DNA from: Bacteroides cellulosilyticus
Lineage (GTDB): Bacteria; Bacteroidota; Bacteroidia; Bacteroidales; Bacteroidaceae
Direction of reading: 5' to 3'
DNA length: 64,000 nucleotides
Assembly: GCF_020091405.1 (NCBI RefSeq)
Contig: NZ_CP081903.1
Span: 4,402,501-4,466,500, forward strand
Shown here: positions 48,618 through 63,143 of the stretch, one piece after another
Layout: each line of letters opens with the position of its first letter
Position numbering within the stretch: position 1 is the stretch's first letter
Notes under the pieces: generated by a model
Database searches by the model: none
What the model saw: only the letters and a program-made list of their open reading frames with translations
What the model was told of the DNA's origin: nothing
Made by a program: the position numbers and the translations under genes

Positions 48618-48989
48618 TTTTGCTCATGACCGGATTAATACGCATCATACTTTTATAAGTGACTGTTGCGATGCCAAGCTCCAAATGAAATCTTCACCCG
48701 GTAATACTGTTATACTTAGCTCCACTTGATGAACAGGCAGATTACGATTTTCAATAGAAAAAAGAAGACTCTCTCAATTCCATACCTCTGAGCAGCTTTC
48801 CAGTCCCTCTTATAACCATATTTCTTCCCAAAAGTGAGGTTACGTCCGCCGTCCATTAATTTTACAGTGCGAAGTTAAGTCGGACGTGAACCTGCAAGGC
48901 GCGTTTCATTTGCAGTCAATGCCGTTCAAATGAAATCCTTCGGATTCCGCTTCCTCCTTGCATTGTTCCCTTCTTCCGCCTTGTGGTTT
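48618..48989. other. Intergenic module before the 175-aa gene
   Basis: No gene. It has CTTTTATA at 48650-48657, the block CAGTCCCTCTTATAACCAT at 48801-48819, and a minus-strand -7-like box CGAAGTTA at 48870-48877 (one mismatch), in the same order as in other modules. Confidence 0.6.
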
Positions 48990-49050
48990 GCACGTAAAAT
49001 CAAATCCCACCGGACGAGGTAAAAGCCTCTGAAGGGAAGGGAAAATAAAA
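48990..49050 (+). promoter_or_regulatory. Repeated leader element, copy before 49062
   Basis: It starts GCACGTAAAATCAAATCCC. TCCC (49005-49008) can pair with GGGA (49034-49037) around an inner hairpin GAGG/CCTC (49016-49019 with 49026-49029). It ends with GGGAAAATAAAA, 12 bp before the ATG. Confidence 0.75.
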
Positions 49051-49061
49051 AATTAGAATGT

Positions 49062-49589
49062 ATGAAACAAATAATTTGGTCAAGTGATGCTCTATTGGAT
49101 GAAACAGCAAGAGAGTATTATCAAAATTTCAAGCGAGAAGAACTGGACGATGATGCCTACAAGGTCAGCGATGAAGAGTGGTCGGACGAAGTGTATAATG
49201 AATTGGGGGATGAGCGGCAGAACCTAAACAAGGATGTCAATGGAGTCATTATTGCATTTGGAGATTTAGGATTGTGGAACGGACGCAAACAAGGCTATCA
49301 AATTTTGGGTGACAACATTGCCGGGATATTACAATCTACACAGTATGATGCAGAGTGGTACGGTGACGGCTACGATATACGAGGCCGTATGTCGCACCAT
49401 GATGGCACGAATTATGTTTTGTACCGTGTCGCTGAAAATCGTGACGACGCAGAACGGATTGCCGCAAAAATCTACAACTATGAAATTGACGAGAATGGTT
49501 TTCGCCAAGTTACACGTTCCCTCCACCCCTATGTGGCCGCAGTGTATGGCTGGAAAACTCTACAGGACAACCTCGTTCAGGTAAAATAG
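49062..49589 (+). CDS. Mobile-element hypothetical protein (175 aa)
   Basis: An acidic 175-residue soluble protein. Its middle part (DVNGVIIAFGDLGLWNGRKQ, GYQILGDNIAGIL, HHDGTNYVLYRVAE) is the kind of conserved core seen in unnamed proteins of Bacteroidales conjugative elements. No catalytic motif is visible. The N-terminal half is strongly acidic, which might suit DNA mimicry, but there is no other sign of an antirestriction protein. It is preceded by the repeated leader and followed by a terminator. Confidence 0.65.
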   Translation: MKQIIWSSDALLDETAREYYQNFKREELDDDAYKVSDEEWSDEVYNELGDERQNLNKDVNGVIIAFGDLGLWNGRKQGYQILGDNIAGILQSTQYDAEWYGDGYDIRGRMSHHDGTNYVLYRVAENRDDAERIAAKIYNYEIDENGFRQVTRSLHPYVAAVYGWKTLQDNLVQVK

Positions 49590-49608
49590 CCTGTAACCTG
49601 TACTTAAA

Positions 49609-49650
49609 CAAATGCCGTAACGCTTTCTCAAGAGGCTGTTACGGCACTTG
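49609..49650 (+). terminator. Terminator of the 175-aa gene
   Basis: A perfect 9-bp stem TGCCGTAAC/GTTACGGCA (49613-49621 with 49638-49646), extended by flanking A and T pairs. Confidence 0.75.
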
Positions 49651-49975
49651 TGTTTTATGCCGTATATATTCTGCATAAAATGTGGTGGGAAACTATTCCT
49701 TTTTACACATTTATGAATGTTCCCGCCCAACTGTTGTAGGTGGCCGCTTGTGCCAGTTTCCTTTTTTAGACTCCGGCCCTCCTTTATAGCCCCATCCAGC
49801 TACCCCCCTATATTTCTATCCCGCAAGCCTGGTTATTTCCCTGCAAAATTCGATTGCCGGCTGTCCGTCCTGTCAAGGACCGCTGACACTTGCTGCTGTA
49901 AAATCTTCCTCTCCGAAATATCGAAGAGTGTATTTTCCGCATCCTCCTTGCCCGTTCTGGCCGCCAATCCCGTGG
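49651..49975. other. Intergenic module before the 104-aa gene
   Basis: No gene. It has pyrimidine-rich DNA, CCTTTATAGCCCCATC at 49791-49806 and a minus-strand -7-like box CAAAATTC at 49844-49851 (one mismatch). Confidence 0.55.
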
Positions 49976-50030
49976 GCAGAAAAATAATCAACCTTTCGGT
50001 ACAGGAAGTATCGAAGGGAAATAAATAAAA
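49976..50030 (+). promoter_or_regulatory. Repeated leader element, copy before 50056
   Basis: A diverged copy: GCAGAAAAATAATCAACC, a hairpin CCTTTCG with CGAAGGG around a short loop, then GGGAAATAAATAAAA, 25 bp before the ATG. Confidence 0.55.
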
Positions 50031-50055
50031 TATTAATCTTAAAATTTGAGGCATT

Positions 50056-50370
50056 ATGACATTCAGAGAATTTATGTTAGAGAACGGTTATGAATTGCAA
50101 ACAACCTTTTGGAATGATTTTTCCATTGCTGACCGATTTGGTCTTTCGGCGATACAGGACACTTTCAACCGTGCTTTTGAGGAGTGGAAAGAGAACTACA
50201 AGTATCTCACGGAACTGGTTTTAGTGCTTAACCATAAGATATGGCAGTATTATGAAACAAGGCCGGAAATTGCGACATTGTATAATACCCTTTGGGCACA
50301 AGCCAGTCAATATGCAATGGAGTATCTGAAAGATGACGAGCTAAGCTATTATTATGATGTAACGGATTAA
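50056..50370 (+). CDS. Mobile-element hypothetical protein (104 aa)
   Basis: A 104-residue mostly helical protein rich in aromatic residues (FREFMLENGYELQTTFWNDF, FGLSAIQDTFNRAFEEWKEN, LTELVLVLNHKIWQYYETRP). I recall similar short proteins in Bacteroidales conjugative elements, without known function. It has its own leader and a hairpin after the stop (AGCCG/CGGCT at 50403-50420). Confidence 0.65.
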   Translation: MTFREFMLENGYELQTTFWNDFSIADRFGLSAIQDTFNRAFEEWKENYKYLTELVLVLNHKIWQYYETRPEIATLYNTLWAQASQYAMEYLKDDELSYYYDVTD

Positions 50371-50694
50371 ATGTCCCAGCTCCTCCCACAGGAACAAAAG
50401 AAAGCCGGCTTTTGTCGGCTGCTCTTTGTGGTCATTCCCTTTTTTATCACTCCGTTTTACCCTTGTATAAAACGAAATTATTTCGTTTCAGGCTGCTACC
50501 AGTCAGGACTTGTTTTTTCCTGTGCAAAGGTATTGCCACGGAAAAACATTCAAGTACCGCTACGCTATTTGAACACAATTTTTCAGTAGCTTTCCCGATT
50601 TTCAATCGCTCAAATGTCGTATACGCTCCATACCGCAACTGTAAAAATTCTGTCCAAATTCCTTGCCTGCTTTTCCTTAAAGGCAATCTTGAAT
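50371..50694. other. Intergenic module before the DUF4313-like gene
   Basis: No gene. It holds the terminator-like hairpin at 50403-50420, a minus-strand promoter with -7 box CAAAGGTA at 50525-50532 and CAAGTA (minus TACTTG) 18 bp to its right as the -33 element, followed by CCGCTACGCTA. Confidence 0.65.
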
Positions 50695-50756
50695 GCACGT
50701 AAAAATCAAATCCCGACTGGAGAAGCCTAAAGGCTTCCGAAAAAAGGGAAAAAAAG
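50695..50756 (+). promoter_or_regulatory. Repeated leader element, copy before 50789
   Basis: It starts GCACGTAAAAATCAAATCCC. TCCC (50711-50714) pairs with GGGA (50746-50749) around GAAGCC-taaa-GGCTTC (50722-50737). It lies 33 bp before the ATG. Confidence 0.8.
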
Positions 50757-50788
50757 AACATGATGTTTAATAGCTAAATTTTAAAAGT

Positions 50789-51289
50789 ATGGAAATTCAA
50801 TTTGTGATTGTTCGTTCAGAAAATGCAGAGTATTTGTGTCACAATGTAAATGGAACGTATGTGGATGTCAGCGACCCATCAACAGAATTTGTTTCTGGAG
50901 AGGATGATTTTCGCTTGGTAGAGCCGGACAGCTCCCTAACGCGGAAAGAATACGAGTTTCGTGGAGAACGCTTTTATCTCATGCCTCAATTTTATGGCAA
51001 TGGCTGGTTAGCACTTACTTTGCAAAGTGTGGAAGATGAAACAGAGTATATCGTGCTATCCGTCAATTTGGAGAGCATGGATGCACTCGATTTGCCAGAC
51101 CGTACATTTATTGATGTGAATCATTATCCGGATGCAATGGAGTTTCTGGAGACAAATAATTTAGCGACCTATTCAGGTTACAAGCGTAGAAGCGGATTTG
51201 TGGAATATCCAATGGCGGTATTGAATCTTCCTTTGCTTTATCAGCACGCCCCGCAGATTTTCCAAGAGGCGAATATCGAATGTTTTTAA
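50789..51289 (+). CDS. DUF4313-like mobile-element protein
   Basis: A 166-residue soluble protein. The C-terminal two thirds (YGNGWLALTLQSVEDETEYI, VLSVNLESMDALDLPDRTF, IDVNHYPDAMEFLETNNLAT, YSGYKRRSGFVEYPMAV) follow the pattern that I remember for DUF4313: x-N-x-x-L-A-x-x-L, L-T-V-N-L, F-I-D-x-N and SGFxxYP. That family is found in Bacteroidales mobile elements and its function is unknown. It has its own leader. Confidence 0.72.
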   Translation: MEIQFVIVRSENAEYLCHNVNGTYVDVSDPSTEFVSGEDDFRLVEPDSSLTRKEYEFRGERFYLMPQFYGNGWLALTLQSVEDETEYIVLSVNLESMDALDLPDRTFIDVNHYPDAMEFLETNNLATYSGYKRRSGFVEYPMAVLNLPLLYQHAPQIFQEANIECF

Positions 51290-51695
51290 ATGGTTTTCTG
51301 AAAGTATGGTACTGATGACTACCAAAGAGATACCGTATCGGTTAAATCCTATCGGTATGGTATCTTCTTTTGCCCGAAGACAGGTGGCATCCCCCTTTTT
51401 TACAGATTGCTCCGTGCCCACTTTTTTAATTTCCTTGTTTCCCTTTTATAGCAGCGTAACTGCCTGCTTCTCTTTTACAGCCCTTATGTAATGAATGTTG
51501 ATGTTTCCTGTCGTTATCCAGACTTTCGCCCGGTCTTGTTTTCGTGTGCAAAATTACGGCGAACGAACGCTATCCAAGTATCGCTACGCTATCCGAAATG
51601 AAATTTGACGTAATCTTCCTAAATCATAGATTTCGGTATTCATAAAATTTCATTTCCGATTCCTTGCACTGCGTTCCTGCTTCGTCGTTTGGGAC
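51290..51695. other. Intergenic module before the LPD11-like gene
   Basis: No gene. It has CCCTTTTATAGCAG around 51441-51456, and a minus-strand promoter with -7 box CAAAATTA at 51549-51556 and CAAGTA 18 bp to its right, followed by TCGCTACGCTATCC and GATTTCGGTATTC. Confidence 0.65.
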
Positions 51696-51756
51696 GCACA
51701 TGAAAAACAACCCTTCCGGCAAAGTCGAAAGACTTGAAAAAAGGGAAAATAAAAAA
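51696..51756 (+). promoter_or_regulatory. Repeated leader element, copy before 51780
   Basis: GCACATGAAAAACAACCC, then TTCC (51714-51717) pairing with GGAA (51744-51747) around AAGTC-gaaa-GACTT (51722-51735). It ends GGGAAAATAAAA, 24 bp before the ATG. Confidence 0.78.
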
Positions 51757-51779
51757 CTTAATTAAAAACGAAAACGAGT

Positions 51780-52034
51780 ATGACAATAGAAGAAGTATTA
51801 CAGCACGATTTAAAATTCAGGTATATGTTATTGGGGCGTTTGCAAGCCGACTGTGAATATTATCTTGGCTTTGGAAACAAAAGTTCTCGTCGTTTGTGGG
51901 CTGGTTCTGAAAAGGCACAAATTGAATACATGACGAAAATTCACGACAGCTTCCGAGAAAACGAAAAACCCGAATGGCTGACAATGGAGCAAATCAAAGA
52001 ATACAGCAATGCTATGGAAGTAACACAAGAATAA
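51780..52034 (+). CDS. LPD11-domain-like small protein
   Basis: An 84-residue protein with LGRLQADCEYYLGFGNKSSR, RLWAGSEKAQIEYMTKIHDS and a short C-terminal helix. This resembles the LPD11 domain (large polyvalent protein-associated) that I recall, with D-C-E-Y-x-L-G-x-G and L-W-A-G-x-E blocks, found free-standing or fused in mobile elements. Its function is unknown. The gene has its own leader and terminator. Confidence 0.75.
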   Translation: MTIEEVLQHDLKFRYMLLGRLQADCEYYLGFGNKSSRRLWAGSEKAQIEYMTKIHDSFRENEKPEWLTMEQIKEYSNAMEVTQE

Positions 52035-52043
52035 TTCAAAAAA

Positions 52044-52081
52044 AATACCGTAATAACCTTTAACGGAGGTGTTGCGGTATT
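52044..52081 (+). terminator. Terminator of the LPD11-like gene
   Basis: A stem AATACCGTAATAACC against GGTGTTGCGGTATT (52044-52058 with 52068-52081), with a few mismatches. Confidence 0.7.
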
Positions 52082-52412
52082 ACAGTATTACAAATAAGGG
52101 TCGGAGTTTGAGAACATACCCTCTTATAATTGAGAGGGTAATAATAGTCCCTCTTTTATAATTATATCATTCTATTCCTTTTTTATATTTCTGCAAAAGG
52201 AATAGCATTCTTCTTTTATATTAATTATTTTTCATTTTATCTCCCATCTATTCTTCATCCTATCACCGGTTTGGTTTTATCAAATGCAAAGGTCGGCTAT
52301 CGCGCTTGATCCTGCTACTTGAAGTGTATTTCTTACAAAATTCTTCCTTCCTGCGCAAGAGTAATTTGGCAAGAAAAGTTGCCGTATGAAGCTGTATCGA
52401 CATCCGTTTACC
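52082..52412. other. Intergenic module before the YubB-like gene
   Basis: No gene. It has CTTTTATA at 52153-52160 and again near 52213, a minus-strand -7-like box CAAAGGTC at 52287-52294 (one mismatch) and mostly AT-rich DNA. Confidence 0.55.
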
Positions 52413-52471
52413 GCATCCATAAATCCCAAAACGGTTCAATCAGTAAAGAACCGACAATATGGGAAATAAAA
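52413..52471 (+). promoter_or_regulatory. Repeated leader element, copy before 52506
   Basis: A diverged copy: GCATCCATAAATCCC, TCCC (52424-52427) with GGGA (52461-52464) around CGGTTC/GAACCG (52432-52437 with 52448-52453). It ends GGGAAATAAAA, 35 bp before the ATG. Confidence 0.65.
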
Positions 52472-52505
52472 GTTAATACTAACCAATTCTTTAAACATTA
52501 AAATC

Positions 52506-53186
52506 ATGCCTAATTATGTAACAAACCGTTTAGAAATAAACGTAGACAGAGAAACAGTACAAAATGTGATGGATTTCTTAAAAGGAAAAACTGATGAAGA
52601 CAGTACGCCTTGCTATATTGACTTCAACAACATTATCCCTATGCCAAAGGACTTACTGATAGAAGCGTCCACTTCTGGGGAATTTGGTATGCAGTATATC
52701 ATAGCACAGCAACGTAAACCGTTCAATTCACAGGACGACCTGAAAGTCATTCAATGGATGGAAATTCAGGAGGAAAAAGTCAGGGAAGAAGCATTACAAC
52801 TTGGAATGACATATCTGAGAAACTGGGGAAAATACGGTTATCCTACTTGGTATGAATGGTCTATTGCCAACTGGGGTACAAAATGGAATGCCTTTAATCA
52901 GAATTTTGAAGAACCGAACGTGCTTTGGTTTGATACGGCTTGGGAAGGTGTGCCTCTGCTTATCCAAACACTCTCCGAGATATTTCCGGACGTCGAGTTT
53001 CAATATGCCTATGCGGATGAAGACCTTGGTTCCAACGTGGGCAAAGGGACTATCCGAAATGGAGAAACCGACATGACATTCCCCGATAACGGAAGTAACG
53101 AAGCCTTTGAAATTGTCTTTTTCGTAAAACCGGGATTAGAGGAATACTTGGAACTGACAGACGAGGGGTATAGGTGGAAAGCCTAA
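52506..53186 (+). CDS. YubB/DUF1281-type mobile-element protein
   Basis: A 226-residue protein. It has PNYVTNRLEINVDRETVQNV at the start, FNNIIPMPKDLL near residue 40, WYEWSIANWGTKWNAFNQ near 118 and LWFDTAWEGVPLLIQTLSEI with FPDVEFQYAYADED near 145-175. These are the marks of the DUF1281/YubB ferredoxin-like family of plasmids and conjugative elements; no biochemical role is established. The smaller proteins at 46406 and 62372 look like shortened relatives. Preceded by the repeated leader and followed by a hairpin. Confidence 0.85.
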   Translation: MPNYVTNRLEINVDRETVQNVMDFLKGKTDEDSTPCYIDFNNIIPMPKDLLIEASTSGEFGMQYIIAQQRKPFNSQDDLKVIQWMEIQEEKVREEALQLGMTYLRNWGKYGYPTWYEWSIANWGTKWNAFNQNFEEPNVLWFDTAWEGVPLLIQTLSEIFPDVEFQYAYADEDLGSNVGKGTIRNGETDMTFPDNGSNEAFEIVFFVKPGLEEYLELTDEGYRWKA

Positions 53187-53219
53187 ACATCTCCGGACAG
53201 ACAATATCTGACATGTATT

Positions 53220-53247
53220 CAGGGTATATCTCAACCGATATATCCTG
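53220..53247 (+). terminator. Terminator of the YubB-like gene
   Basis: An 11-bp stem with one G-U pair (53220-53230 with 53237-53247), 33 bp after the stop. Confidence 0.7.
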
Positions 53248-53360
53248 GATTCCTGTTGCCGGAAGCTCCGTTTATATTTATTCCATTCCACTTCCTTTTT
53301 ACAATTTCACGCCTCTTGAACCAGTCTTTTTTGACCGTATTTACCCATCCCTTGGCTGGC

Positions 53361-53465
53361 CTACTTATCATCTTTGAAGCTGCTTTTACTGAAACCGCCA
53401 AACACGCCCTTCAAGAGCTTGCCGACAACCCAGAATACCAGCAATACAATTATAATATCTCCCAT
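53361..53465 (-). CDS. Small single-span membrane protein (34 aa)
   Basis: A minus-strand ATG frame of 34 codons encodes a hydrophobic N-terminal helix (IIIVLLVFWVVGKLLKGVF) and a basic, serine-rich tail. A CTTTTATA block (minus TATAAAAG) lies at 53474-53481, just before the start. It could be a short membrane peptide of toxin or regulator type. Real expression is uncertain. Confidence 0.4.
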   Translation of the reverse strand: MGDIIIVLLVFWVVGKLLKGVFGGFSKSSFKDDK

Positions 53466-53554
53466 AAGTCTTACTTTTATAGTTTTAACAATAATAAAAA
53501 TACAAAATAATAACCGAAAAACAAATATACGATCCTGATTATCTGAAAATTCTA

Positions 53555-54199
53555 TCAGGAGTTACCTTCATTTGTTCCGTCCTCTTTCGGGTTCTGTTTG
53601 ACACGCGGACCGCTGGTTTGGCCACGATCAAGTTTTACGCCATATTTATTGAGTATGCGCCAAATAGAACTTTTGCTGCTAAAACCGCTTGCAGCCCAAA
53701 TGTCATCGAAAGAATGCCCGTTGATATACATATCCACGATTGTCTTATCTCGTTCAGCTTTAGGTAATACCTTCGGCACAGCCGGGGCTTTGATATTCTG
53801 GCGTAACTTCTCGACATGAGCGGAATATTTTCGTAGTGCGGCAATTTCTTCCGGAAATGCCCCTATTATCCACAACACATCGGCTGCTGTCGTACCGGGG
53901 AATAATTCACCGCGAGTATCAACTCTGTCATGAATGGATATGACACGTACAATTTTGATACGGCATAGTTCGATGAACGCGGCCAGTTCTCTTAAACCGC
54001 GTGCAGCATTGCTGAATTTGGATATGACTATTTCATCGCCCCTTTGAAGATTCGCCATAAGCTGTTTCCACATAGGTCTCAATGTTTCATGTTCAACTGT
54101 TTCCTCTACGATTTGTACACAACCATATCGCTGCATCCATTCTCTCTCAGCATCAAAACTGTCATTATTTTCCTTGAATATATAGCCAACTTTTGCCAT
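53555..54199 (-). CDS. Serine-recombinase-like protein lacking the catalytic serine
   Basis: A 214-residue protein (ATG at 54199). Its plan is that of a resolvase/invertase: an N-terminal alpha/beta domain (KVGYIFKENNDSFDAEREWM, GDEIVISKFSNAARGLRELA), a long helix, and a C-terminal helix-turn-helix (HSFDDIWAASGFSSKSSIWR). Where active enzymes read Y-x-R-V-S-T, this has Y-I-F-K-E-N, so the serine nucleophile and its arginine are gone. The DRLGR box is also changed to SNAARG. I recall similar recombinase-like proteins across Bacteroides. It may bind DNA as a regulator and not recombine. A minus -7 box CAAATATA lies at 54229-54236. Confidence 0.8.
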   Translation of the reverse strand: MAKVGYIFKENNDSFDAEREWMQRYGCVQIVEETVEHETLRPMWKQLMANLQRGDEIVISKFSNAARGLRELAAFIELCRIKIVRVISIHDRVDTRGELFPGTTAADVLWIIGAFPEEIAALRKYSAHVEKLRQNIKAPAVPKVLPKAERDKTIVDMYINGHSFDDIWAASGFSSKSSIWRILNKYGVKLDRGQTSGPRVKQNPKEDGTNEGNS

Positions 54200-54228
54200 T
54201 TTAATATACACTGTTTTGATAACAAGTG

Positions 54229-54236
54229 CAAATATA
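54229..54236 (-). promoter_or_regulatory. Promoter of the recombinase-like gene
   Basis: The minus strand reads TATATTTG, a perfect -7 box 30 bp before the ATG at 54199. Confidence 0.6.
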
Positions 54237-54411
54237 GCACTTTCATTTTAATCTAAAATCATATCGTGGCAAAAATCTCGCTAAATCCTTTTTTTAGCTT
54301 TTTTTCTTGCACTTGTTTTCATTGATAATCATATTATTAATATGATACCAAAAATTATACTAAATGCGATATAAAAGGGCTTTTACAATAAAAATAATAT
54401 ATAGATTTGCA

Positions 54412-54419
54412 TCGTTAAA
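54412..54419 (+). promoter_or_regulatory. Promoter of the lipoprotein and mobilization genes
   Basis: TAGATTTG is a perfect -7 box 15 bp before the ATG at 54435. It lies at the head of a tight + strand run reaching at least 57793. Confidence 0.6.
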
Positions 54420-54434
54420 TATGAATTGTTAAAT

Positions 54435-55484
54435 ATGAAAATTTTAAAATCATACTACAAGACTCCATCATTTTTGACTGGAAGATGTATCGTTTCATTG
54501 GCCATATTGGGCCTGATATCATGCAGCGATAGAAATGGCAAATCATTGTCTGAAGCTACGAACGATCCTGCCGGAATATACAGGGAGTACTTGTACAATA
54601 TACGACGTCAGAAAGATTCCTCATTTCAAGTATTGACCAAGCATATCCTACAATGGCAAACAGTAAAAGACTCTGTTTTTAGGTATCTCCGGAATGATAC
54701 GCTCAGCCACCCCCATTCCAATCAGCGTGAAGAGTGTATCAGACTGCATGATTCTATCCGCACTGAGTTCTCACGCTTAGCCCTCTCAAAGACGCGTACT
54801 TATCAGGAACTTTTGGCTCTCAAAGGAGAGTTCTCACCTTATAACAATGATGAGGAACTGCATCATGCCGCTGGAGAAATCCGCCCGTTTTTCAACTCAC
54901 TGGATAATCTTCCGCTTCATAAGGGTAACAAAGAGGAAATCCTTGCGGCTTACCGTATGTTACTGACCCGAACTATCCGTAACGGCATACATAGCCGCAA
55001 TGAACTGATTACTTATATCACTAAAGAAGATGCTATATTCCGTGCGTTCCTCTCTCACTTGCACGATTTCGAAGGTGAGAGTATGGCTGACATCACACGT
55101 GGTACTGAACAGTGTTGTTCGCAGATATTCTTTGCCGCTGAGAGAAAGGAGATTACCTATCGGGAGGCTATGCTTTATTTGACAATGCGCACCAATCGTC
55201 GCCAAATACAAAATATGCAGATTTGTATAGAAGATGTTCGGAACAAAAAAATCAAGACTTCTTCGCAAGCACATGCTTATATATGGATGCTTATCCACCC
55301 TTATACTTCATTGGACGGATTCTCTATGACATTGCTTTCCGATAAAGAACGGAAACAACTTGACAGGATGGCGGCACAGACACCTGTGGCGTTCAAAACC
55401 TTGAGCCGAATCCTGCAATCGGAAAGTGGTCAACTGACTGAACTGCCAGGAATGCTTATGGATATTTTCATACAGACGCTCTAA
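54435..55484 (+). CDS. Lipoprotein of unknown function
   Basis: A 349-residue precursor with a lipoprotein signal (CIVSLAILGLISCSD, cysteine near residue 30), then a long helical, charged region without recognised domains (QTVKDSVFRYLRNDT, YQELLALKGEFSPY, TRTIRNGIHSRNELI). It is expected at the outer or inner membrane facing the periplasm. It heads the run of genes before the relaxase, so a role in transfer or surface exclusion is possible but not shown. Confidence 0.65.
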   Translation: MKILKSYYKTPSFLTGRCIVSLAILGLISCSDRNGKSLSEATNDPAGIYREYLYNIRRQKDSSFQVLTKHILQWQTVKDSVFRYLRNDTLSHPHSNQREECIRLHDSIRTEFSRLALSKTRTYQELLALKGEFSPYNNDEELHHAAGEIRPFFNSLDNLPLHKGNKEEILAAYRMLLTRTIRNGIHSRNELITYITKEDAIFRAFLSHLHDFEGESMADITRGTEQCCSQIFFAAERKEITYREAMLYLTMRTNRRQIQNMQICIEDVRNKKIKTSSQAHAYIWMLIHPYTSLDGFSMTLLSDKERKQLDRMAAQTPVAFKTLSRILQSESGQLTELPGMLMDIFIQTL

Positions 55485-55495
55485 CAATATAAAAA

Positions 55496-55948
55496 ATGAA
55501 TATGTTACGACATTTTTTCAATGACTTTATGACATTTGTCCCTCTGCAACTACCGCAACTACTCGATGTGACGACAATGGAGGAAGCACAATTCTACGGT
55601 GACTACGCCCTACTGACCTTCCCGCTACGCGACCCTTACGATTTGGAGGAAGTGATGGATCTGTTTGAGGACGATATGGAGCTTATAACTCTCTACCACC
55701 ACATCCCCACGCACGCTGACAAATTCGGGCATAGCACCTGTGCATACTCCAACCCGGCATTTGGACAGATGTTCAAGATGAATTGCAAGACAGATGCAGA
55801 CGGTAAGGTAAATAGCATTCTTGTCACCATCTATGATTCTCTTGAGCAGATGTACGGCGAGCTGTGCCTTGATTTGGATCTTCATTCCAAAAGTGGCACA
55901 TTCAAGTATAAGAAGAACAAAGACGATCTCTTGATGGATTTCCTTTAA
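55496..55948 (+). CDS. Hypothetical protein (150 aa)
   Basis: An acidic 150-residue soluble protein, 11 bp after the lipoprotein gene. It has aromatic and acidic segments (DYALLTFPLRDPYDLEEVMD, LFEDDMELITLYHHIP). No family is recognised. Its tight spacing on both sides suggests one operon with the lipoprotein and the following genes. Confidence 0.6.
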   Translation: MNMLRHFFNDFMTFVPLQLPQLLDVTTMEEAQFYGDYALLTFPLRDPYDLEEVMDLFEDDMELITLYHHIPTHADKFGHSTCAYSNPAFGQMFKMNCKTDADGKVNSILVTIYDSLEQMYGELCLDLDLHSKSGTFKYKKNKDDLLMDFL

Positions 55949-55958
55949 TGGTCATGTT

Positions 55959-56354: not shown

Positions 56355-56908
56355 TTTGGAATATACTACAACTTATCTTCTGTATAACGCTTTTCGTATT
56401 GCCATTAGCATTGTACAAAAGCCACCGTTCTTTTATGGTAAGGTTCTACGATGCTATGATACACAGTGTAAAGGCTCGTAAACTATATGTACAGGTCGTA
56501 TTGATTCTGCTATTGCTCTTCCACTATGTTTACATCAGCGGACATGTTGGCGAGTTCGGTGTTTTTCTTTCAACTGCTATCTGTGCCACTATATATTCAT
56601 TTAGAAGAGCGGACAGATTGTTAAGAGGTTTATGTGACCGATCATGTATGTTTGTCATACTCTCATTGGTGGCTTTGGCCATCAGTTTTGTTCCACACTT
56701 GTACACAACGGCGGTAACTGCCGCCTATCTTCTTTTGGCTGCCCTGTTCTATCCCTCTGTTCGGGTTATGACCGAATTTCAGGACATAGGCATAATCTCT
56801 GAATGGATGAAATTCCCCAGACTATTAGCCGAAAGTTATTATGACCATCATCACGCGATATTGCCGCAAGATGCGGATAGCGGCAACACTGATATATCCG
56901 CACAATAG
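56351..56908 (+). CDS. Hypothetical membrane protein (185 aa)
   Basis: A 185-residue protein with four or five hydrophobic spans (ILQLIFCITLFVLPLALY, VQVVLILLLLFHYVYI, GVFLSTAICATIYSF, MFVILSLVALAISFV, AVTAAYLLLAALFY) and a hydrophilic C-terminus. No transport motif is recognised. The 4-bp overlap with the upstream gene points to coupled translation. Confidence 0.65.
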   Translation: MIWNILQLIFCITLFVLPLALYKSHRSFMVRFYDAMIHSVKARKLYVQVVLILLLLFHYVYISGHVGEFGVFLSTAICATIYSFRRADRLLRGLCDRSCMFVILSLVALAISFVPHLYTTAVTAAYLLLAALFYPSVRVMTEFQDIGIISEWMKFPRLLAESYYDHHHAILPQDADSGNTDISAQ

Positions 56909-56926
56909 TAATAATTAAAAAATGAA

Positions 56927-57793
56927 ATGAAAATGAAAACCAAGCAGAAAATAGCTGTCCCTATATTGGCAGACAGAGAAGTATTTGACTACCTCAAGGA
57001 GAAAGTCGGTGAACGAAAAACAAAGACAGAAGCCTTCTGTGATTTATTGGATAAATCTTTGGCAGGTTTTGTTTCCCCTTTTTTAAGGAACAAAGGCTAC
57101 GAACTTCAACCCAACCAGTGCCACGTGACTGTTTCTGACCTTTCATCGGAATGGCATTGGCATAGGGCTACTGTCCGTTCTTTTTTGGATGTAATGGAAG
57201 AGTTCGGCTTGTTGAATCGCATCCGGCTTTCCAAAAGCGTCATCATTACCATGACTGTGCAAACCAGCCAATCCACGGAGTCTTGCAATGGACAGAAGAA
57301 GTTGAACCTTGCAGAACAGCTACGTGAGGCATTGTCCGATTGGATAATCGGCAAAGTGTCCCTTGACGAGATCGGAATCAAGTGTGAGCAACTTGTTCGT
57401 CGGGCAATGGATGAAGCTGGCATATGCGATAGCTGCCCATCTCCGGACAGTATCACTCGCATCAATCCGGCAGCGGATGATGATGAACGAGCTGTCAAGA
57501 TTCGTATGGTAGCTTTGGAGTGCATTACATTTGCCGCTATACAACGGGCACTGCGTAAGTCGAGATTCGATGACAGTGCAGAGTTTATGGACTACTTCCG
57601 ATTGGAATTGTATGGGGACTGGACAGGACTTATTGCAACTTCGAAAGGTATTGCTGGGCTTATTCTTGATGTAGATAGGGATGAAAATTCCGATTATGAT
57701 GAAGATGACAGGGAGTTCCTTAAAACGCTTTTTAAGCCTTTTCTGGCATTTGCGGCAAAGGCACAGGAGGCAACGTATCAGATTGGAGGTTGA
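56927..57793 (+). CDS. Probable mobilization accessory DNA-binding protein
   Basis: A 288-residue soluble protein directly before the oriT-like region and relaxase. Residues about 50-100 (NQCHVTVSDLSSEWHWHRATV, RSFLDVMEEFGLLNRIRLSK) look like a winged-helix DNA-binding fold of the replication-initiator kind. The C-terminal half is helical and acidic. I cannot name the family. Position suggests that it helps the relaxase or controls its operon. Confidence 0.6.
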   Translation: MKMKTKQKIAVPILADREVFDYLKEKVGERKTKTEAFCDLLDKSLAGFVSPFLRNKGYELQPNQCHVTVSDLSSEWHWHRATVRSFLDVMEEFGLLNRIRLSKSVIITMTVQTSQSTESCNGQKKLNLAEQLREALSDWIIGKVSLDEIGIKCEQLVRRAMDEAGICDSCPSPDSITRINPAADDDERAVKIRMVALECITFAAIQRALRKSRFDDSAEFMDYFRLELYGDWTGLIATSKGIAGLILDVDRDENSDYDEDDREFLKTLFKPFLAFAAKAQEATYQIGG

Positions 57794-57999
57794 AAACAGA
57801 ATGTATAACCGCAACAATCCACTTTTGTATCCAGTGAAGCCCCCCTGCCAGTTATAGAAGGCATCCGGGCTTGCCCGCCTGCCACGAACAAAGGGAAGGG
57901 GGAGCCTAATACCCCACCTGCCTGACGTTGGTGGGAAGGGTGTCCGAACAAGCAGCAAGCTGGGACACGGTAGATTGTCCGAAACAATATGAAAAACGT
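57794..57999 (+). other. Candidate origin of transfer
   Basis: This 206-bp gap lies right before the relaxase start. It is GC-rich compared with its surroundings and holds several inverted repeats: CGGGC-tt-GCCCG (57866-57877), GTGTCC with GGACAC (57940-57945 with 57963-57968) and C5/G5 runs. MobV elements usually carry oriT just upstream of mob. No nic consensus was matched. Confidence 0.5.
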
Positions 58000-59457
58000 A
58001 TGGCAAATCAAAAACAGGTACTCGACGTGCAGGTGTCGAAAGGGATTACCACCGCCCAAAGTAATGAACATCTGCGTGACCGTAGTGAAAAGGCAGAGAA
58101 GTACGCTATGAGTAAGGGAAATTATGATCCTACGCGTAAACGGCTGAACTTCGAGATTGCGCCCGGAGGTAAAATACATCCCATCGACACAAGCCGTAGC
58201 ATTCCCAAACGGATGGCGGACATATTAAGTCACCGTGGAATCAAAGATCCTAATGAGGGGCTGCTCGAACCAAAATACCGCACGGTGGTAAATATCATCT
58301 TCGGCGGTTCACGGCAGCGAATGCAGGAACTTGCTTTCGGTACGCAACAGGTGGACTTTGAAAAAGGTGCGGACAATACCCGCATCGAACGGAAGCGTGA
58401 CATTGAACGCTGGGCCAAGGATGTTTATTCATTCGTTTGTGGCAGATATGGTGAGCAGAACATCGCTGCATTCATTGTACATCTGGATGAATTGAACCCG
58501 CATATCCACTGTACGCTTCTGCCAATCAAGGATAGTCGCTTTGCGTACAAGGAAATCTTCGCCGGTAAGGATAAGTTTGAATATAGTGCAAGAATGAAAC
58601 AACTTCATACGGACTTTTTCGCAGAAGTCAATACAAAGTGGGGAATGTCAAGAGGAACAAGCATATCCGAAACGGGTGCACGGCACAGAACGACTGAGGA
58701 ATACCGCCGAATGTTGTCTGAAGAGTGTACAACAATCGAGGATAATATCAAACTCCATCAACAGGTATTGGGTGAACTTCAATCAGACATCCGGTTGGCA
58801 GAACGCAGAGTCAAAGGGCTTACGACAATGGTTAGCAATCTTGAAAAGCAGAAAACTGAAAAAGAAACCTTGTTATCGGCAGCCGAGTACAATTTAAAAG
58901 AAAACAAAGGCAATGCGGCAGAATTGGCAATCCAAATACAAATGTTGGAAAAAGAGCTGCAAGGAATCATCAGGCAACTGGCAGACAAGCAGGAAAAGTT
59001 GCAGACGGCTGACCGGCAACTCATCGAACTGAAAAAGGATATGGGAGCCATTGAAGAACGTACCGAAGAACTCAAAGAGGAGGCCTATCAATATTCCCGT
59101 GATGTACACTCCAAAGTGGATAGCTTGTTTAAAGACGTCCTACTGGAGAGTGTAATCAGCGAGTATCGTAACGCATCGGCACAAATGAATGTTTCAGAAC
59201 GGCAGCTCTTTGACGGTTCACTGGTACAGTCTATCGCCGAGCGGGGTACGGAAATCATGCACTGTGCGACAATGCTATTTCTCGGAATGGTAGATGATGC
59301 CACTACATTTGCCGAATCACATGGTGGTGGAGGCGGAGGGAGTGACCTCAAATGGGGACGCGACGAGGACGAGGACAATCGAGCATGGGCACTTCGCTGT
59401 ATGAGGATGGCGAGCCGCATGATGCGCTCGACTATCGGCAAGAAATCTAAACGGTAA
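58000..59457 (+). CDS. MobV-family relaxase (Pre/Mob type)
   Basis: A 485-residue relaxase (ATG at 58000; a TTG at 57928 would add 24 residues reading into the oriT-like stretch). It nicks oriT and leads the strand in conjugative transfer. The N-terminus has VLDVQVSKGITTAQSNEHLR; motif III HLDELNPHIHCTLLPI starts at about residue 161 (HxDExxPHxH). A long coiled coil spans about 225-375. The C-terminus has a glycine run (HGGGGGGSDL) and acidic residues. No coupling protein is in the window, so transfer may need helper functions or genes to the right. Confidence 0.93.
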   Translation: MANQKQVLDVQVSKGITTAQSNEHLRDRSEKAEKYAMSKGNYDPTRKRLNFEIAPGGKIHPIDTSRSIPKRMADILSHRGIKDPNEGLLEPKYRTVVNIIFGGSRQRMQELAFGTQQVDFEKGADNTRIERKRDIERWAKDVYSFVCGRYGEQNIAAFIVHLDELNPHIHCTLLPIKDSRFAYKEIFAGKDKFEYSARMKQLHTDFFAEVNTKWGMSRGTSISETGARHRTTEEYRRMLSEECTTIEDNIKLHQQVLGELQSDIRLAERRVKGLTTMVSNLEKQKTEKETLLSAAEYNLKENKGNAAELAIQIQMLEKELQGIIRQLADKQEKLQTADRQLIELKKDMGAIEERTEELKEEAYQYSRDVHSKVDSLFKDVLLESVISEYRNASAQMNVSERQLFDGSLVQSIAERGTEIMHCATMLFLGMVDDATTFAESHGGGGGGSDLKWGRDEDEDNRAWALRCMRMASRMMRSTIGKKSKR

Positions 59458-59510
59458 ATGGCATACGCCTTACACCAGATTAAAAGTATAACTAATGAAA
59501 TCATTGGAAT

Positions 59511-60953
59511 ATGACGAAACAAATTATTTTCATCTTCGCTTTGCTCTGCACGTTGCAGGCACAAGCAAGTGTACAACCCGTACAGAAGGACACTGTACGA
59601 CACACTATTCATTATGAAGTAGCGGAATTGCTTCAACCGATGCAGCCCGTCTATCTCAACGGGGTGCTACTTCCGGCATCTCGAACCGGCAACTGGTTTG
59701 TTAGCATATCCGGAGGTGCGACAGTTTTTCTTGGTACACCTCTCGGTTGTGAAGACCTTTTTGGACGAGTGAAACCTTCGTACAGCCTCGCCGTCGGCAA
59801 ATGGTTTACTCCTTTGGTCGGCGCAAGGGTAAATTATAGTGGCTTGCAGTTTAAGGATGCACAATTATCTACGCAGGACTACCATTATATCCATGCAGAT
59901 CTCCTGTGGAATCTCCTTGGACGCAGATATGCCCGACAGGAACAGGTACGTTGGAGGCTTGCACCCTTTATGGGTGTCGGTCTGCTACATAACGCCACCA
60001 ACGGGAACAATCCCTTTGCGCTTTCTTACGGCATACTAACACAATACCGTATTTCCAAACGGGTTAGTGCTATGCTGGAACTCTCTAACACAACTACATT
60101 CCAGGATTTCGACGGATATGGCTATCCAAACCGTCTGGGCGATCACATGCTTTCGCTGACTGCCGGATTCACCTTTCATCTCGGTAAGGTCGGCTGGAAG
60201 CGCGCGGTGGATACGGCACCATACATCCATCGGAACGAACTGCTTGTCGATTATGGCAACTTCCTTTCGGAGGAGAACAGGCGTTATGTGGGACGTCACA
60301 ATCAAGATAAGCGAACACTCGTGGAATTAAAGAAAATTCTGGAAATCGAAGGACTACTCGATACATATAGCCATATCTTTGACAACGACGATATAACCGG
60401 ATGCAGATATCCTATAAATAATTATAGCGGTTTGAACTCGCTTCGTGCAAGATTGAAGCATAGCTATTGGGACGGGTCGTCACCTCTTGACACGACTATT
60501 CTTCAGACAGAGAATGGAAAGCCATCATATAATTACACGGCTTCCCGAAATGTGCAGTCCGCCCATCAGGACACCCTCGCTATGGATTCCACGGTTCTTT
60601 CATACGCTGATGGAGAGTGCATCGGTACACCCATCTATTTCTTTTTTGCTCTCAATACGACACATCTGACGGATACCTCACAGAGGCTTAATCTTGACGA
60701 ACTGGCTCGTGTAGCTAAGAAATACAGTTTATCCGTGAGGGTAACTGGTGCTGCTGACAGTTCTACAGGAACATCAAGTATCAATGATTCTTTGAGTATA
60801 TCGAGAGCAGGTTTTATTACCGCAGAACTGGAACAACGTGGAATACCAGCCAAGCGGATTATCAGAGTTAGCAAAGGTGGAATTGCCGACTATACGCCCG
60901 TGGAAGCCAACAGACATACGAAAGTGGAGTTGTTTTTTCCAAAAGCGAAATAG
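59511..60953 (+). CDS. OmpA-family outer membrane protein
   Basis: A 480-residue precursor with a signal peptide (IIFIFALLCTLQAQA). The N-terminal part is rich in alternating beta strands typical of an outer-membrane barrel (NWFVSISGGATVFLGTPLGC, KWFTPLVGARVNYSGLQF, LSLTAGFTFHLGKVGW). The C-terminal domain (PIYFFFALNTTHLTDTSQRL, SVRVTGAADSSTGTSSIND, RAGFITAELEQRGIP) is OmpA-like and may bind peptidoglycan. It is carried next to the relaxase and may alter the surface of the host cell. Confidence 0.88.
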   Translation: MTKQIIFIFALLCTLQAQASVQPVQKDTVRHTIHYEVAELLQPMQPVYLNGVLLPASRTGNWFVSISGGATVFLGTPLGCEDLFGRVKPSYSLAVGKWFTPLVGARVNYSGLQFKDAQLSTQDYHYIHADLLWNLLGRRYARQEQVRWRLAPFMGVGLLHNATNGNNPFALSYGILTQYRISKRVSAMLELSNTTTFQDFDGYGYPNRLGDHMLSLTAGFTFHLGKVGWKRAVDTAPYIHRNELLVDYGNFLSEENRRYVGRHNQDKRTLVELKKILEIEGLLDTYSHIFDNDDITGCRYPINNYSGLNSLRARLKHSYWDGSSPLDTTILQTENGKPSYNYTASRNVQSAHQDTLAMDSTVLSYADGECIGTPIYFFFALNTTHLTDTSQRLNLDELARVAKKYSLSVRVTGAADSSTGTSSINDSLSISRAGFITAELEQRGIPAKRIIRVSKGGIADYTPVEANRHTKVELFFPKAK

Positions 60954-60994
60954 AAATTTCGCATAATTGATGTTTAACTTTGTCATAATCAATG

Positions 60995-61027
60995 AAGCCT
61001 CTCCGCTGTGAAGCGAAGAGGCTTTTT
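60995..61027. terminator. Terminator after the OmpA-family gene
   Basis: A 12-bp stem with one mismatch (60995-61006 with 61013-61024), 6-nt loop and five Ts, 40 bp after the stop. It may serve the minus-strand histone-like gene in reverse. Confidence 0.85.
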
Positions 61028-61082
61028 CGATATGGTACACGTGAAGTTCGCCATTTTCCTACTGTCAGAACCAGAATGAAAA

Positions 61083-61256
61083 TTATTTCGATGCTTCAAG
61101 TGACTCTTTTCTGAACTGTTTGAGAAGTTTTTCAAGTTCAAGTGATACTTTGCGGGCACGAGTTCCGGCAGCTTTGTTGCCTTTCTCCATCTGGAGGTTG
61201 GCATCTTTTGAGAATTGATCGAACAATTCACAGATTTGTGTAAATGTTTTTTCCAT
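61083..61256 (-). CDS. Histone H1-like protein
   Basis: A 57-residue helical basic protein (MEKTFTQICELFDQFSKDAN, then GNKAAGTRARKVSLELEKLL and KQFRKESLEASK). The core KGNKAAGxRARKxSLExEK is that of the small histone H1-like proteins common in Bacteroidales. It should bind DNA or act as a nucleoid protein. The only clearly independent minus-strand gene in this part of the element, with its own promoter (minus TATCTTTG at 61289-61296). Confidence 0.85.
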   Translation of the reverse strand: MEKTFTQICELFDQFSKDANLQMEKGNKAAGTRARKVSLELEKLLKQFRKESLEASK

Positions 61257-61288
61257 TGTTATGTTCTTAATATTATATAATACGCTGG

Positions 61289-61296
61289 CAAAGATA
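61289..61296 (-). promoter_or_regulatory. Promoter of the histone-like gene
   Basis: CAAAGATA on + reads TATCTTTG on the minus strand, 33 bp before the ATG. It shows that CAAAnnTA boxes in this region can be real minus-strand promoters. Confidence 0.65.
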
Positions 61297-61656
61297 GCAA
61301 AAATATTTTTTTAGGACTTATATTAGCTCTGTTATATATTTCGCCTATAATATGATACCCCTTTTTATGTTTTTCCATTCTGAGTATTCCCTTATCGCAC
61401 CATCGGCAAATCTGGCCGAAGAGATTTTATATGCAAAGGTACAGTGTCCGGACGATTGTCAAGCACCGCTATGCTAACGGTTCCTGGATATTTTACGGCA
61501 GCCTTCCTCAAATCAAAGATTGACTTTCAGTCCCCTTCTCATTGCAAGGTATAAAAGGACAAGCCTGCTTCTGCTCTTACATTCGAAGGTTGGGTATTCC
61601 GTTCCATTCCATTTACTGTTTACTTGTCTTATCGCCCTTATTCCACTGTTAATCCT
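61297..61656. other. Intergenic module before the 156-aa gene
   Basis: No gene. It has a minus-strand promoter with -7 box CAAAGGTA at 61434-61441 and CAAGCA 18 bp to its right, followed by CCGCTATGCTAACGGTTCC, a phrase shared with the module at 62934. Confidence 0.65.
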
Positions 61657-61715
61657 GCATAAAAATCAATCCCCGGCAAGAAGCCGAAAGAGCTTCAAGC
61701 AAAGGGAAATAATAA
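61657..61715 (+). promoter_or_regulatory. Repeated leader element, copy before 61726
   Basis: GCATAAAAATCAATCCCC, then TCCC (61670-61673) with GGGA (61704-61707) around GAAGC/GCTTC (61680-61684 with 61692-61696). It lies 10 bp before the ATG. Confidence 0.8.
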
Positions 61716-61725
61716 ATCAAAGAAT

Positions 61726-62196
61726 ATGGGAAAATACGATTTTATCAAGTTGGGTAATCTTCTTTATTGGCATGACCCAGATAGTGGTCTGTCTAATGGG
61801 GTTTACCAAGTGGCTTCTATTCCGGAAAACATTGAAGAGGATAGCGTTATTTTGATTGCATCTGATACTTCGGAAGCGGAGGTTTTTCCTTCTGAATTAT
61901 CACCGATACATACCGGTAGAAGTCATAAAGAAGACTTTTTGCGTTGGAAAACAGAACGTGAAGCTGAAGGTATTGAGTTTTACGACCACCTTTCCAAGGT
62001 GATGGATACGGAAAACGACTTGAGTGTGGGAGATATGGTGGCGTTTACAAACGATTATGGAGTGATATTTGGACCTTGTGAGGTCTTAGCTTTTGGGAAT
62101 CTCTGTAATAGTGGCAGATGTGTATATATTGACAGTGATTCTTATTGGTTTCCTAACCGTCCCGACCAACTCACCATCATGAGAGGTGCGGAATGA
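61726..62196 (+). CDS. Mobile-element hypothetical protein (156 aa)
   Basis: An acidic 156-residue soluble protein with beta-rich parts (YDFIKLGNLLYWHDPDSGLS, NGVYQVASIPE, LSVGDMVAFTNDYGVIFG, CVYIDSDSYWFPNRP). The second part has the feel of a small barrel domain. No family is recognised. It has its own leader and terminator, like its neighbours. Confidence 0.65.
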   Translation: MGKYDFIKLGNLLYWHDPDSGLSNGVYQVASIPENIEEDSVILIASDTSEAEVFPSELSPIHTGRSHKEDFLRWKTEREAEGIEFYDHLSKVMDTENDLSVGDMVAFTNDYGVIFGPCEVLAFGNLCNSGRCVYIDSDSYWFPNRPDQLTIMRGAE

Positions 62197-62204
62197 CAAT
62201 AACA

Positions 62205-62233
62205 TATCCACCTGTAGCCAAAGCGGGTGGATA
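62205..62233. terminator. Terminator after the 156-aa gene
   Basis: A perfect 8-bp stem TATCCACC/GGTGGATA (62205-62212 with 62226-62233). Confidence 0.7.
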
Positions 62234-62371
62234 GCATTTCCTTGTATTGTATATTCAGCCCGATTACTCTTATAGCCATGCTCCACCGAACTCCCACAAC
62301 CGGTCCTATTCCTTTTTTACTCGTCGTACTCCGTTTCTAAACAGTATAACACATTTATTGGCCTGACATTC

Positions 62372-62728
62372 TTGAAATTCACAACGGAAACGGCTTGGTT
62401 TCCGTGTGATGAAACACTTGAACTGGTATGTGAGAAATTCCCAACACTATGTTATTTCTATCAATCGGAAGAGTCGGGTCTGGCGGAGTACTGGACAAAT
62501 GACCAAGAGAGTAAATACTTTCCCGAAAAGTACATTGCAGACCTATGTACTCCAGACGACAAATGGTACAAGGAATATTTTGTCAACCAGACAGAAGTAT
62601 TCAAGTGGTTTGAGGTGATAAGCGGTCAGTCTGTCGAATCAATAACAGAAATTCTTGCTATTGCCGAACAACGGAAAGATGAAAACGACAATTCTTTCTG
62701 TAACATCTATGAATATGCCGCAGGCTAA
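62372..62728 (+). CDS. Truncated YubB-like protein
   Basis: A 118-residue frame whose first possible start is a TTG. It matches only the C-terminal half of the YubB plan (TTETAWFPCDETLELVCEKF, PTLCYFYQSEESGLAEYW), which in the full protein at 52506 follows about 140 residues. The N-terminal half and the usual leader hairpin are missing. It is probably a remnant left by deletion, or a gene started by an unusual codon. Confidence 0.5.
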   Translation: MKFTTETAWFPCDETLELVCEKFPTLCYFYQSEESGLAEYWTNDQESKYFPEKYIADLCTPDDKWYKEYFVNQTEVFKWFEVISGQSVESITEILAIAEQRKDENDNSFCNIYEYAAG

Positions 62729-63087
62729 GACTAATCCGATGCAGAAAACGAAATGACGGTATGCTGACAGCGTGCAGCGAACTATCATTATCCGATAAGC
62801 TTCTCTGATTTCATGCAGATTGGAGACTTTGTCGCCTTCAGTCCTTTTATACAGTCTCAGAGTGCTTCTCCAGTCTTTTATAGATATTCTTTATATCGCA
62901 CATCGGCAGTTCTTATCTGAGAGATTTTGTATGCAAAGATACAGCTTTAGAATGGTCGTCAAGTAACGCTGCGCTAACAGTTCCCGGATACTTGTGGCAG
63001 CCTTCCGCATATCGAAGATTTGGGTATTCCACTTCATTCCATTCACTGTTTACTTGCCTTATCCATCCTTTCCTTGCTGTCAATTTC
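62729..63087. other. Intergenic module before the 161-aa gene
   Basis: No gene. It has CAGTCCTTTTATACAGTC at 62840-62857, CAGTCTTTTATAG at 62871-62883, a minus-strand promoter with -7 box CAAAGATA at 62934-62941 and CAAGTA 18 bp to its right, followed by CGCTGCGCTAACAGTTCCC. Confidence 0.65.
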
Positions 63088-63143
63088 GCATAAAAATCAT
63101 TCCTGACAAGAAGCCGAAAGAGCTTCAAGTAAAGGGAATAAAG
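63088..63143 (+). promoter_or_regulatory. Repeated leader element, copy before 63168
   Basis: GCATAAAAATCATTCC, then ATTCC (63099-63103) with GGAAT (63135-63139) around the same GAAGC/GCTTC hairpin. Both sides of the outer stem are changed together compared with other copies. It lies 24 bp before the ATG. Confidence 0.82.

Follow-up and report, generated by a model that had tools for sequence, protein, structure and literature searches.

In this work we describe a repeated element in a 64,000-nucleotide stretch of Bacteroides cellulosilyticus DNA (the window; contig NZ_CP081903.1 of assembly GCF_020091405.1, positions 4,402,501 to 4,466,500), where its copies precede genes of an integrative and conjugative element (ICE). 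Modelling of these copies suggests that each of them is probably a single-stranded-DNA promoter of the ICE, of the Frpo/ssi kind, mostly followed by a hairpin at the 5' end of the RNA. The evidence, obtained in silico, comprises a promoter motif and its orientation, a hairpin, complementarity that is specific to each element, asymmetries between the strands, and a bias of the copies toward one strand.

A first-pass annotation, made from the sequence alone, had described a repeated leader before small genes. These leaders are the final 60 nt of an element of 150-250 nt: conservation extends about 150-230 nt 5' of the leader, and directly 5' of it lies a hairpin of 150-250 nt, overlooked by that annotation, of which GCAnnTAAAAATCA is the 3' arm. 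The 102 hits of a covariance model of the leader were reduced to 56 non-redundant copies, and a recognisable long hairpin is present in 45 of these. The constant part of the upstream element reads TTTTnnnTG-CAAAGGTA-N17/18-CAAG, and one arm of the hairpin carries a Bacteroides sigma-ABfr promoter directed away from the gene. The primary Bacteroides promoter is outlined in PMC7366714 as TTTG near -33 and TAnnTTTG at -7, and the conserved CAAANNTA...CAAG box, equally missed before, is this promoter in reverse complement. In the form CAAANNTA-N16..20-CAA the reversed promoter occurs in 36 of the 56 elements, whereas 100 dinucleotide shuffles had it in 0.34 elements on average and in 2 at most, and a forward sigma-ABfr promoter was found in none of the 56 within 260 nt of the leader. 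Thus, the genes have no forward promoter of this type in that stretch, and the good one present there is wrongly oriented. The form of the motif was chosen after the copies had been viewed, a point answered by the held-out test described below. It must be taken into account that the counts include related elements and that the figures are not true probabilities.

The strand of the upstream hairpin that folds better is the minus strand, which is the template of the genes. This strand is the more stable one in all 45 elements with an arm, to which the fold statistics refer, with means of -30.0 kcal/mol for minus and -23.8 for plus (mean shuffle z-scores -2.9 and -1.6). The difference of -6.2 compares with -2.1 in shuffled sequences and lies beyond the shuffles in 43 of the 45; all ten hairpins found inside the window or at its edge are stabler on minus, one of them by 0.2 kcal/mol only. 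The predicted folds follow one plan, with a base stem in 45/45, a promoter stem with a paired TTG end in 37/45, and apical hairpins. In the base stem the 3' arm GCAnnTAAAAATCA faces a TGATTTTTATGC-like sequence beside the promoter box. Two families can be distinguished: in family 1 the box is mostly unpaired at five of its eight positions (mean pairing 0.16-0.49), and in family 2 it is paired apart from its last base (locus L187 was left out of the analysis of box openness, as well as of the fixed-register base-stem and whole-arm swap analyses below). The template strand of the gene is thus predicted to fold and, in doing so, to rebuild a promoter directed at the gene.

All seven leader copies of the first-pass annotation (48990, 49976, 50695, 51696, 52413, 61657 and 63088) are present in the window, and the two that it considered weaker, 49976 and 52413, are genuine. 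Folding reproduced its inner hairpins GAAGCC/GGCTTC, AAGTC/GACTT, GAGG/CCTC and CGGTTC/GAACCG; at 51696 the outer pairs fold as CCCTT/AAGGG and not as the TTCC/GGAA given there. An eighth leader, not noticed earlier, lies immediately beyond the window end at 64007-64062 (match G000:C1:4466507-4466562). The covariance model of the leader (R1, 12 sequences, five of them from this window and a sixth with an identical copy in the genome) matched the 6.94-Mb genome at 10 places (E up to 0.21), more than expected by chance, all on the plus strand and all within one region of 88 kb. Covariation was evaluated on 102 matches in 64 distinct rows, in an alignment fitted to the structure. The nine pairs of the leader hold 47 cells with two-sided change against 20.2 in shuffles, and the covariation score is 0.299 against 0.197 (0/500 shuffles reach either value). 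One of five measures, the number of pairs with any two-sided change, did not distinguish the leader from shuffles (7 against 6.1, 155/500). Moreover, own leader halves pair better than swapped halves (z -7.9, 0/2000). In 55 rows (L210 was left out of the 56), the CCC..GGG hairpin is stabler on the sense strand in 46 with DNA parameters and in 35 with RNA parameters; 62% of shuffles also favour sense, and 42 of the 55 exceed the shuffle expectation. Sixteen of these loops are of the C(GNRA)G type and seven are CGCAAACAG. These results support, in silico, a conserved RNA hairpin within the 5' leader. It has a form in common with the leader families of Rfam, which are likewise short and structured, and the window gave no Rfam match at gathering thresholds.

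The CCC..GGG hairpin is a structure separate from the upstream hairpin and would stand at the 5' end of the transcript. The positions 5-8 nt past TTTG lie, in family 1, opposite leader positions 1-4, so that the RNA would start in AUAAAAAUCA and open with this hairpin. Since the upstream hairpin and the leader have opposite strand preferences, we read the element as two successive structures, the first formed by DNA on one strand and the second by RNA on the other. The earlier proposal of a conserved cis-acting RNA therefore holds for the leader hairpin, which covaries and favours the sense strand, and explains the last 60 nt only; the protein-bound operator suggested along with it becomes superfluous, since the larger feature is an opposite-strand hairpin with a promoter. 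One could still suppose that the whole element is a cis-acting RNA leader (an attenuator, thermometer or stability element), its upstream hairpin being a longer 5' untranslated region transcribed from a forward promoter further upstream. The covariation and sense preference of the CCC..GGG hairpin would be as expected; however, the 260 nt examined upstream hold no forward sigma-ABfr promoter in any of the 56 elements, the upstream hairpin favours minus in 45/45, contrary to the leader, and the reversed promoter box would have no role. We consider this explanation unlikely.

The genes that follow were previously called unrelated. This is true of their sequences, yet they form one set of small and establishment-type ICE genes. 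In 54 of the 56 elements the first open reading frame (ORF) of at least 50 aa starts 2-58 nt past the leader (median 20), and the 54 genes fall into 28 groups by shared words. Their starts include seven loci similar to the N6-methylase/helicase gene, three similar to the ssb at 136633 and four similar to the DUF4313 gene of the window. ParB and DUF2958 are also found behind elements, DUF1281_C gave one strong match and, in one other group, a match with E 0.005, below its cut-off, and many genes have no Pfam family. Establishment genes as expected behind single-stranded-DNA promoters are therefore represented by SSB, N6-methylase/helicase, ParB and DUF1281_C, beside genes without known family.

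RNA-polymerase-dependent single-strand origins of rolling-circle plasmids and filamentous phage also consist of a folded single strand recognised by RNA polymerase; these prime replication and are not known to be placed singly before genes. The elements could be priming sites of the ssi/sso type, at which the polymerase primes synthesis of the complementary strand and gene expression is secondary. The hairpins would function identically, and Frpo is presented, in the title of its description, as a promoter for transcription and primer RNA synthesis alike. Nevertheless, the copies stand singly before genes, within 58 nt of an ORF start in 54/56, a leader hairpin follows, and about 13 such sites per element would be redundant, which makes priming as the main function an improbable one.

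Pairing between the arms was evaluated by swap tests, in which a piece is asked whether it pairs better with the partner in its own element than with those of other elements. Whole arms of family 1 reach -22.0 kcal/mol with their own and -14.5 with foreign partners (z -10.9, 0/5000, n=28), and family 2 gave z -3.8 (0/5000, n=10). By segments, the -7 box and the spacer pair with the 18 nt preceding the leader (z -7.6 and -7.4, n=23; L187, the 48990 copy and L199, without the CTTCC stretch, were left out). For the apical hairpin, swapping supports the pairing in family 1 (z -5.7, n=18) but not in family 2 (n=6). In a fixed register, the base stem of family 1 has 113 Watson-Crick cells out of 162 against 105.6 in shuffles (3/1000), a modest support, and eight two-sided changes against 2.3 (0/1000); in family 2 the figures are 44/54 against 43.5, and pairing in this register is unsupported. 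RNAalifold on MAFFT alignments found almost nothing, owing to indels. Pairing of the box arm with a CTTTCC stretch about 35 nt further on was rejected, as own arms did not pair better than foreign ones (permutation p 0.68).

The held-out set consisted of 12 elements less than 85% alike any element used earlier. They came from 4/20 and 8/20 loci of two sets, the four being uncompared with the eight or among themselves, and the arm pattern applied was slightly looser at the -33 end. The reversed promoter occurs in 7/12 and the forward one in 0/12. In the nine with an arm, all stems fall below -15 kcal/mol (9/9), the minus strand is stabler in 8/9 and the swap test gave z -5.1 (0/5000); the remaining three have a box or a spacing outside the pattern used. 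These pairing data also bear on the view that the boxes are ordinary duplex promoters firing away from the genes and producing RNA antisense to the preceding gene, with the hairpin serving another use such as a protein-bound operator or a boundary. In duplex form the box is indeed a good sigma-ABfr promoter. An antisense promoter, however, has no need of a box and spacer that pair with the arm preceding the leader, and no promoter of this type would remain for the sense genes, so that this view is very unlikely to be correct.

The distribution of the leader agrees with a one-stranded arrangement. It was found in 20 of 99 sampled genomes of the genus (E up to 0.1) and in 39 of 249 of the family, in 7 of 22 genera (E up to 0.01), which together gave 134 distinct hits in 73 clusters. 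Each of the 33 multi-hit clusters occupies a single strand, and of the 34 clusters with a Mob_Pre relaxase within 120 kb, 33 lie on the relaxase strand (25 genomes chosen from 49 with hits; the weakest rows, E above 2e-7, were left out). That the repeats are MITE-like or REP-like copies spread by transposition is almost certainly wrong, for while they are dispersed imperfect palindromes within one element, their clusters are one-stranded in 33/33, they lie a short distance from ORF starts, they diverge in a compensatory manner, and the ten model hits of the genome are confined to the ICE region. In the samples of the order and the phylum (295 and 296 genomes) the only genome hit was, in each, the one studied here; these samples say little on absence, since genuine-looking copies exist beyond the family and the model was built from such species. 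A pattern search of genome contigs gave at least 115 stretches; the 80 matches listed were mostly chance, and 11 among them were genuine by eye, from Phocaeicola, Palleniella, Bacteroides, Xylanibacter, Parabacteroides, Duncaniella or Rikenellaceae.

Several points weigh against a single-stranded-DNA promoter. All support for this function is in silico. Composition alone favours the minus strand, in 82% of shuffles, and the wobbles of the fixed-register base stem do not lean to minus (6 A.C against 12 G.T in sense). Own arms also outperform foreign ones on the plus strand (z -10.0 and -2.6), so that the arm swap test shows pairing and not strand. Our initial guess at which arms pair proved wrong, and an all-against-all segment test then indicated the arm immediately before the leader. 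Eleven of the 56 elements have no arm by the pattern used and were left out of the fold statistics. The Frpo of F is a partial positive control, as a consensus scan of it gave no clear -35/-10, the best matches having 4 mismatches of 12 and being mostly minus-strand ones. One cluster has the orientation opposite to that of its nearest relaxase, and 11 clusters have no relaxase match near. Finally, many copies are 3' of mobV, possibly on the lagging side, and most hits in other genomes are likewise 3' of the relaxase. The relaxosome genes are usually on the lagging side, according to section 5 of PMC11541004. If the origin of transfer lay 5' of mobV, the leading region would contain the seven elements at 46-52 kb but not those found from 61-64 kb onward.

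The closest known elements are Frpo/ssi, single-stranded-DNA promoters of enterobacterial plasmids in which folding is described to rebuild the -10 and -35 boxes and to give early, transient expression (PMC9849209, PMC11541004). As in F and ColIb-P9, plasmids of E. coli, a long one-stranded hairpin precedes ssb and other establishment genes, and the stretch upstream of ssb in F has the same strand preference (minus -89.1, plus -81.6). There is no homology to Frpo1/2 of F by blastn (best match 18 nt, E 0.29). Unlike Frpo, the promoter is of the Bacteroidota sigma-ABfr type and not TTGACA/TATAAT, there are about 13 copies per ICE, a covarying RNA hairpin follows directly, and copies lie on both sides of the relaxase gene. 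A 2024 survey sought single-stranded-DNA promoters via similarity to known Frpo/ssi or via TTGACA/TATAAT, and by such criteria a sigma-ABfr version could hardly be found; 'Bacteroid' occurs 0 times in its text (PMC11541004). Among the listed titles and starts of abstracts, with subscription papers and bioRxiv mostly outside this search, we found no report of such promoters in Bacteroides or its phylum. A further likeness, compared by description only, is EGeRS1 of the pLS20-family plasmids of Bacillus, a conserved upstream stretch rich in inverted repeats that recurs before mosaic establishment genes, for which its authors note no strong forward promoter and considered a single-stranded-DNA promoter (PMC8708921). 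EGeRS1 differs in its length (400-600 bp against 150-250 nt) and its host, and its mechanism is given as unknown in PMC8708921.

The ICE in which the elements lie probably extends from about 46 kb to 168.8 kb in window coordinates. Its genes include ssb at 48194, the MobV relaxase at 58000, transfer-type genes mostly on the minus strand, an N6-methylase/helicase at 89485, a type VI secretion system (T6SS) with TssC, a ClpV-like ATPase and a VgrG-like protein, a second ssb at 136633, ParA, a ParB-like protein, a coupling protein at 143574 and a tyrosine integrase at 167630. Tyrosine recombinases are found near both ends of the region (44243-45271 in the window and L213:6130-7260). The left part of the ICE has an annotated counterpart in Bacteroides finegoldii TSDC17.2-1.1 (NZ_OY725888.1), where the order of the genes around the elements is the same; this record is filed as a plasmid, has chromosomal genes (ribosomal proteins, ftsY) and was used for annotation only. 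When both strands of 221.5 kb were scanned for boxes that face a strongly pairing arm (below -20 kcal/mol), seven were found on the plus strand and none on the minus strand, all at elements (one registered 27 nt off the box); those at 86367, 89285 and 136389 lie beyond the window. The ICE thus has 13 elements, ten in or at the edge of the window and three beyond, which precede SSB, N6-methylase/helicase, DUF4313, LPD11, DUF1281-type and unknown genes. The elements at 86367 and 89285 (L018) have an identical promoter arm and different genes, the latter preceding a 1659-aa methylase/helicase. Elsewhere in the ICE, three ORFs of about 1400 residues in the T6SS part (100013, 104800 and 110156; L018/L019, outside the window) have their first 60 residues in common and are Rhs-like by look only. 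L017:5644-7893 encodes an ArdC-like protein with a C-terminal MutS_I domain match.

Within the window, the predicted promoter hairpins all lie on the minus strand, the putative transferred strand, and the leaders on the plus strand; energies are given below for minus and then plus. Two hairpins were overlooked by the first-pass annotation. The first, at 46179..46340 (-36.2, -27.6), precedes the gene 46406-46708, has its reverse-complement -7 box at 46194-46201 and is followed by a weak CCC..GGG. The second, at 47977..48167 (-32.0, -23.8; box 47992-47999), precedes the single-stranded DNA-binding protein gene ssb (48194..48574, plus strand, PF00436), and the CCC..GGG leader hairpin was not seen after it. 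Before the gene 49062-49589 lie the hairpin 48855..49002 (-25.7, -23.2; box 48870-48877, CGAAGTTA) and the leader 48990..49051, made up of the 3' arm and the CCC..GGG RNA hairpin. The gene 50056-50370 is preceded by the hairpin 49829..49989 (-27.8, -18.8; box 49844-49851, a degenerate CAAAATTC) and by the leader 49976..50026, which has no R1 match and in which an 11-bp hairpin CCTTTCGGTAC/GTATCGAAGGG, with two G-U pairs, was read from the sequence. Next come the hairpin 50510..50708 (-35.8, -26.4; box 50525-50532; shuffle z on 50510-50709 -5.75 for minus and -2.97 for plus) and leader 50695..50757 of the DUF4313 gene 50789-51289, the hairpin 51534..51709 (-30.6, -30.4; box 51549-51556) and leader 51696..51755 of the LPD11 gene 51780-52034, and the hairpin 52272..52425 (-18.6, -13.1; box 52287-52294, a degenerate CAAAGGTC) and leader 52413..52471 of the DUF1281_C/Api92-like gene 52506-53186, the RNA hairpins of these three leaders having been found by folding.

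The MobV-family relaxase gene occupies 58000..59457 on the plus strand, with an ATG start by the ORF call, and is annotated MobV in NZ_OY725888.1. Between the relaxase module and the next element, a small minus-strand gene (61083-61256) has at its counterpart position in NZ_OY725888.1 an annotated histone H1. The hairpin 61419..61668 (-27.9, -19.7; box 61434-61441), with an apical insertion of about 70 nt, and the leader 61657..61715 precede the gene 61726-62196, and the hairpin 62919..63099 (-22.7, -17.5; box 62934-62941) and the leader 63088..63142 precede the gene 63168-63653; both leaders have an R1 match and an RNA hairpin by folding. Between these lies a 118-aa ORF with a TTG start (62372-62728) and no element match before it, which may be a truncated copy, as a longer CDS is annotated at the corresponding place of NZ_OY725888.1 (80756-81334). 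The last hairpin, 63843..64000 (-27.3, -24.1; box 63858-63865), crosses the window end and continues to 64016 in the genome; with the leader 64007-64062 it precedes an ATG at 64085.

According to these data, the following course of events may be proposed. The ICE would enter the recipient as one strand, here the minus strand, which is the template of the plus-strand genes and the putative transferred strand. On this strand each element would fold into a base stem (in sense, TGATTTTTATGC/GCATAAAAATCA and variants), a promoter stem and apical hairpins. The 3' arm of the promoter stem would read TTG-N17/18-TAnnTTTG on the minus strand, as in the sigma-ABfr consensus, with unpaired -7 box bases in family 1. 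This promoter, being locally double-stranded, would be bound by the RNA polymerase of the host, which would leave the hairpin at its base and continue along the single-stranded template, with the RNA starting near AUAAAAAUCA at the leader start. The mRNA would open with the CCC..GGG hairpin, and about 60 nt at most would separate this from the start codon. After synthesis of the second strand, the promoter in duplex form would point away and the gene would be off, so that SSB, methylase and other establishment genes would be expressed early and transiently. SSB, which stands behind two elements of the ICE, could feed back on these promoters, because SSB is reported to stimulate transcription from Frpo (PMC11541004).

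More tentatively, these elements may constitute a class of single-stranded-DNA promoters that is non-homologous to Frpo and matched to the Bacteroidota sigma factor. Each would be a two-strand device: the incoming DNA strand would provide the promoter by folding, and the RNA made from it would start with a hairpin of its own, selected on the other strand, that would help to peel the nascent RNA off the unpaired template for use by ribosomes. The ICE would have a regulon of about 13 promoters that are on only while it is single-stranded.

If the proposed function is correct, ICEs of dominant human gut bacteria, one of them with T6SS cargo, would switch on their entry genes as enterobacterial plasmids do. 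As many of the downstream genes have no known family, the elements would be a handle for finding unknown establishment and anti-defence genes. Moreover, the question of which strand is transferred, and from which origin, would become testable by sequence.

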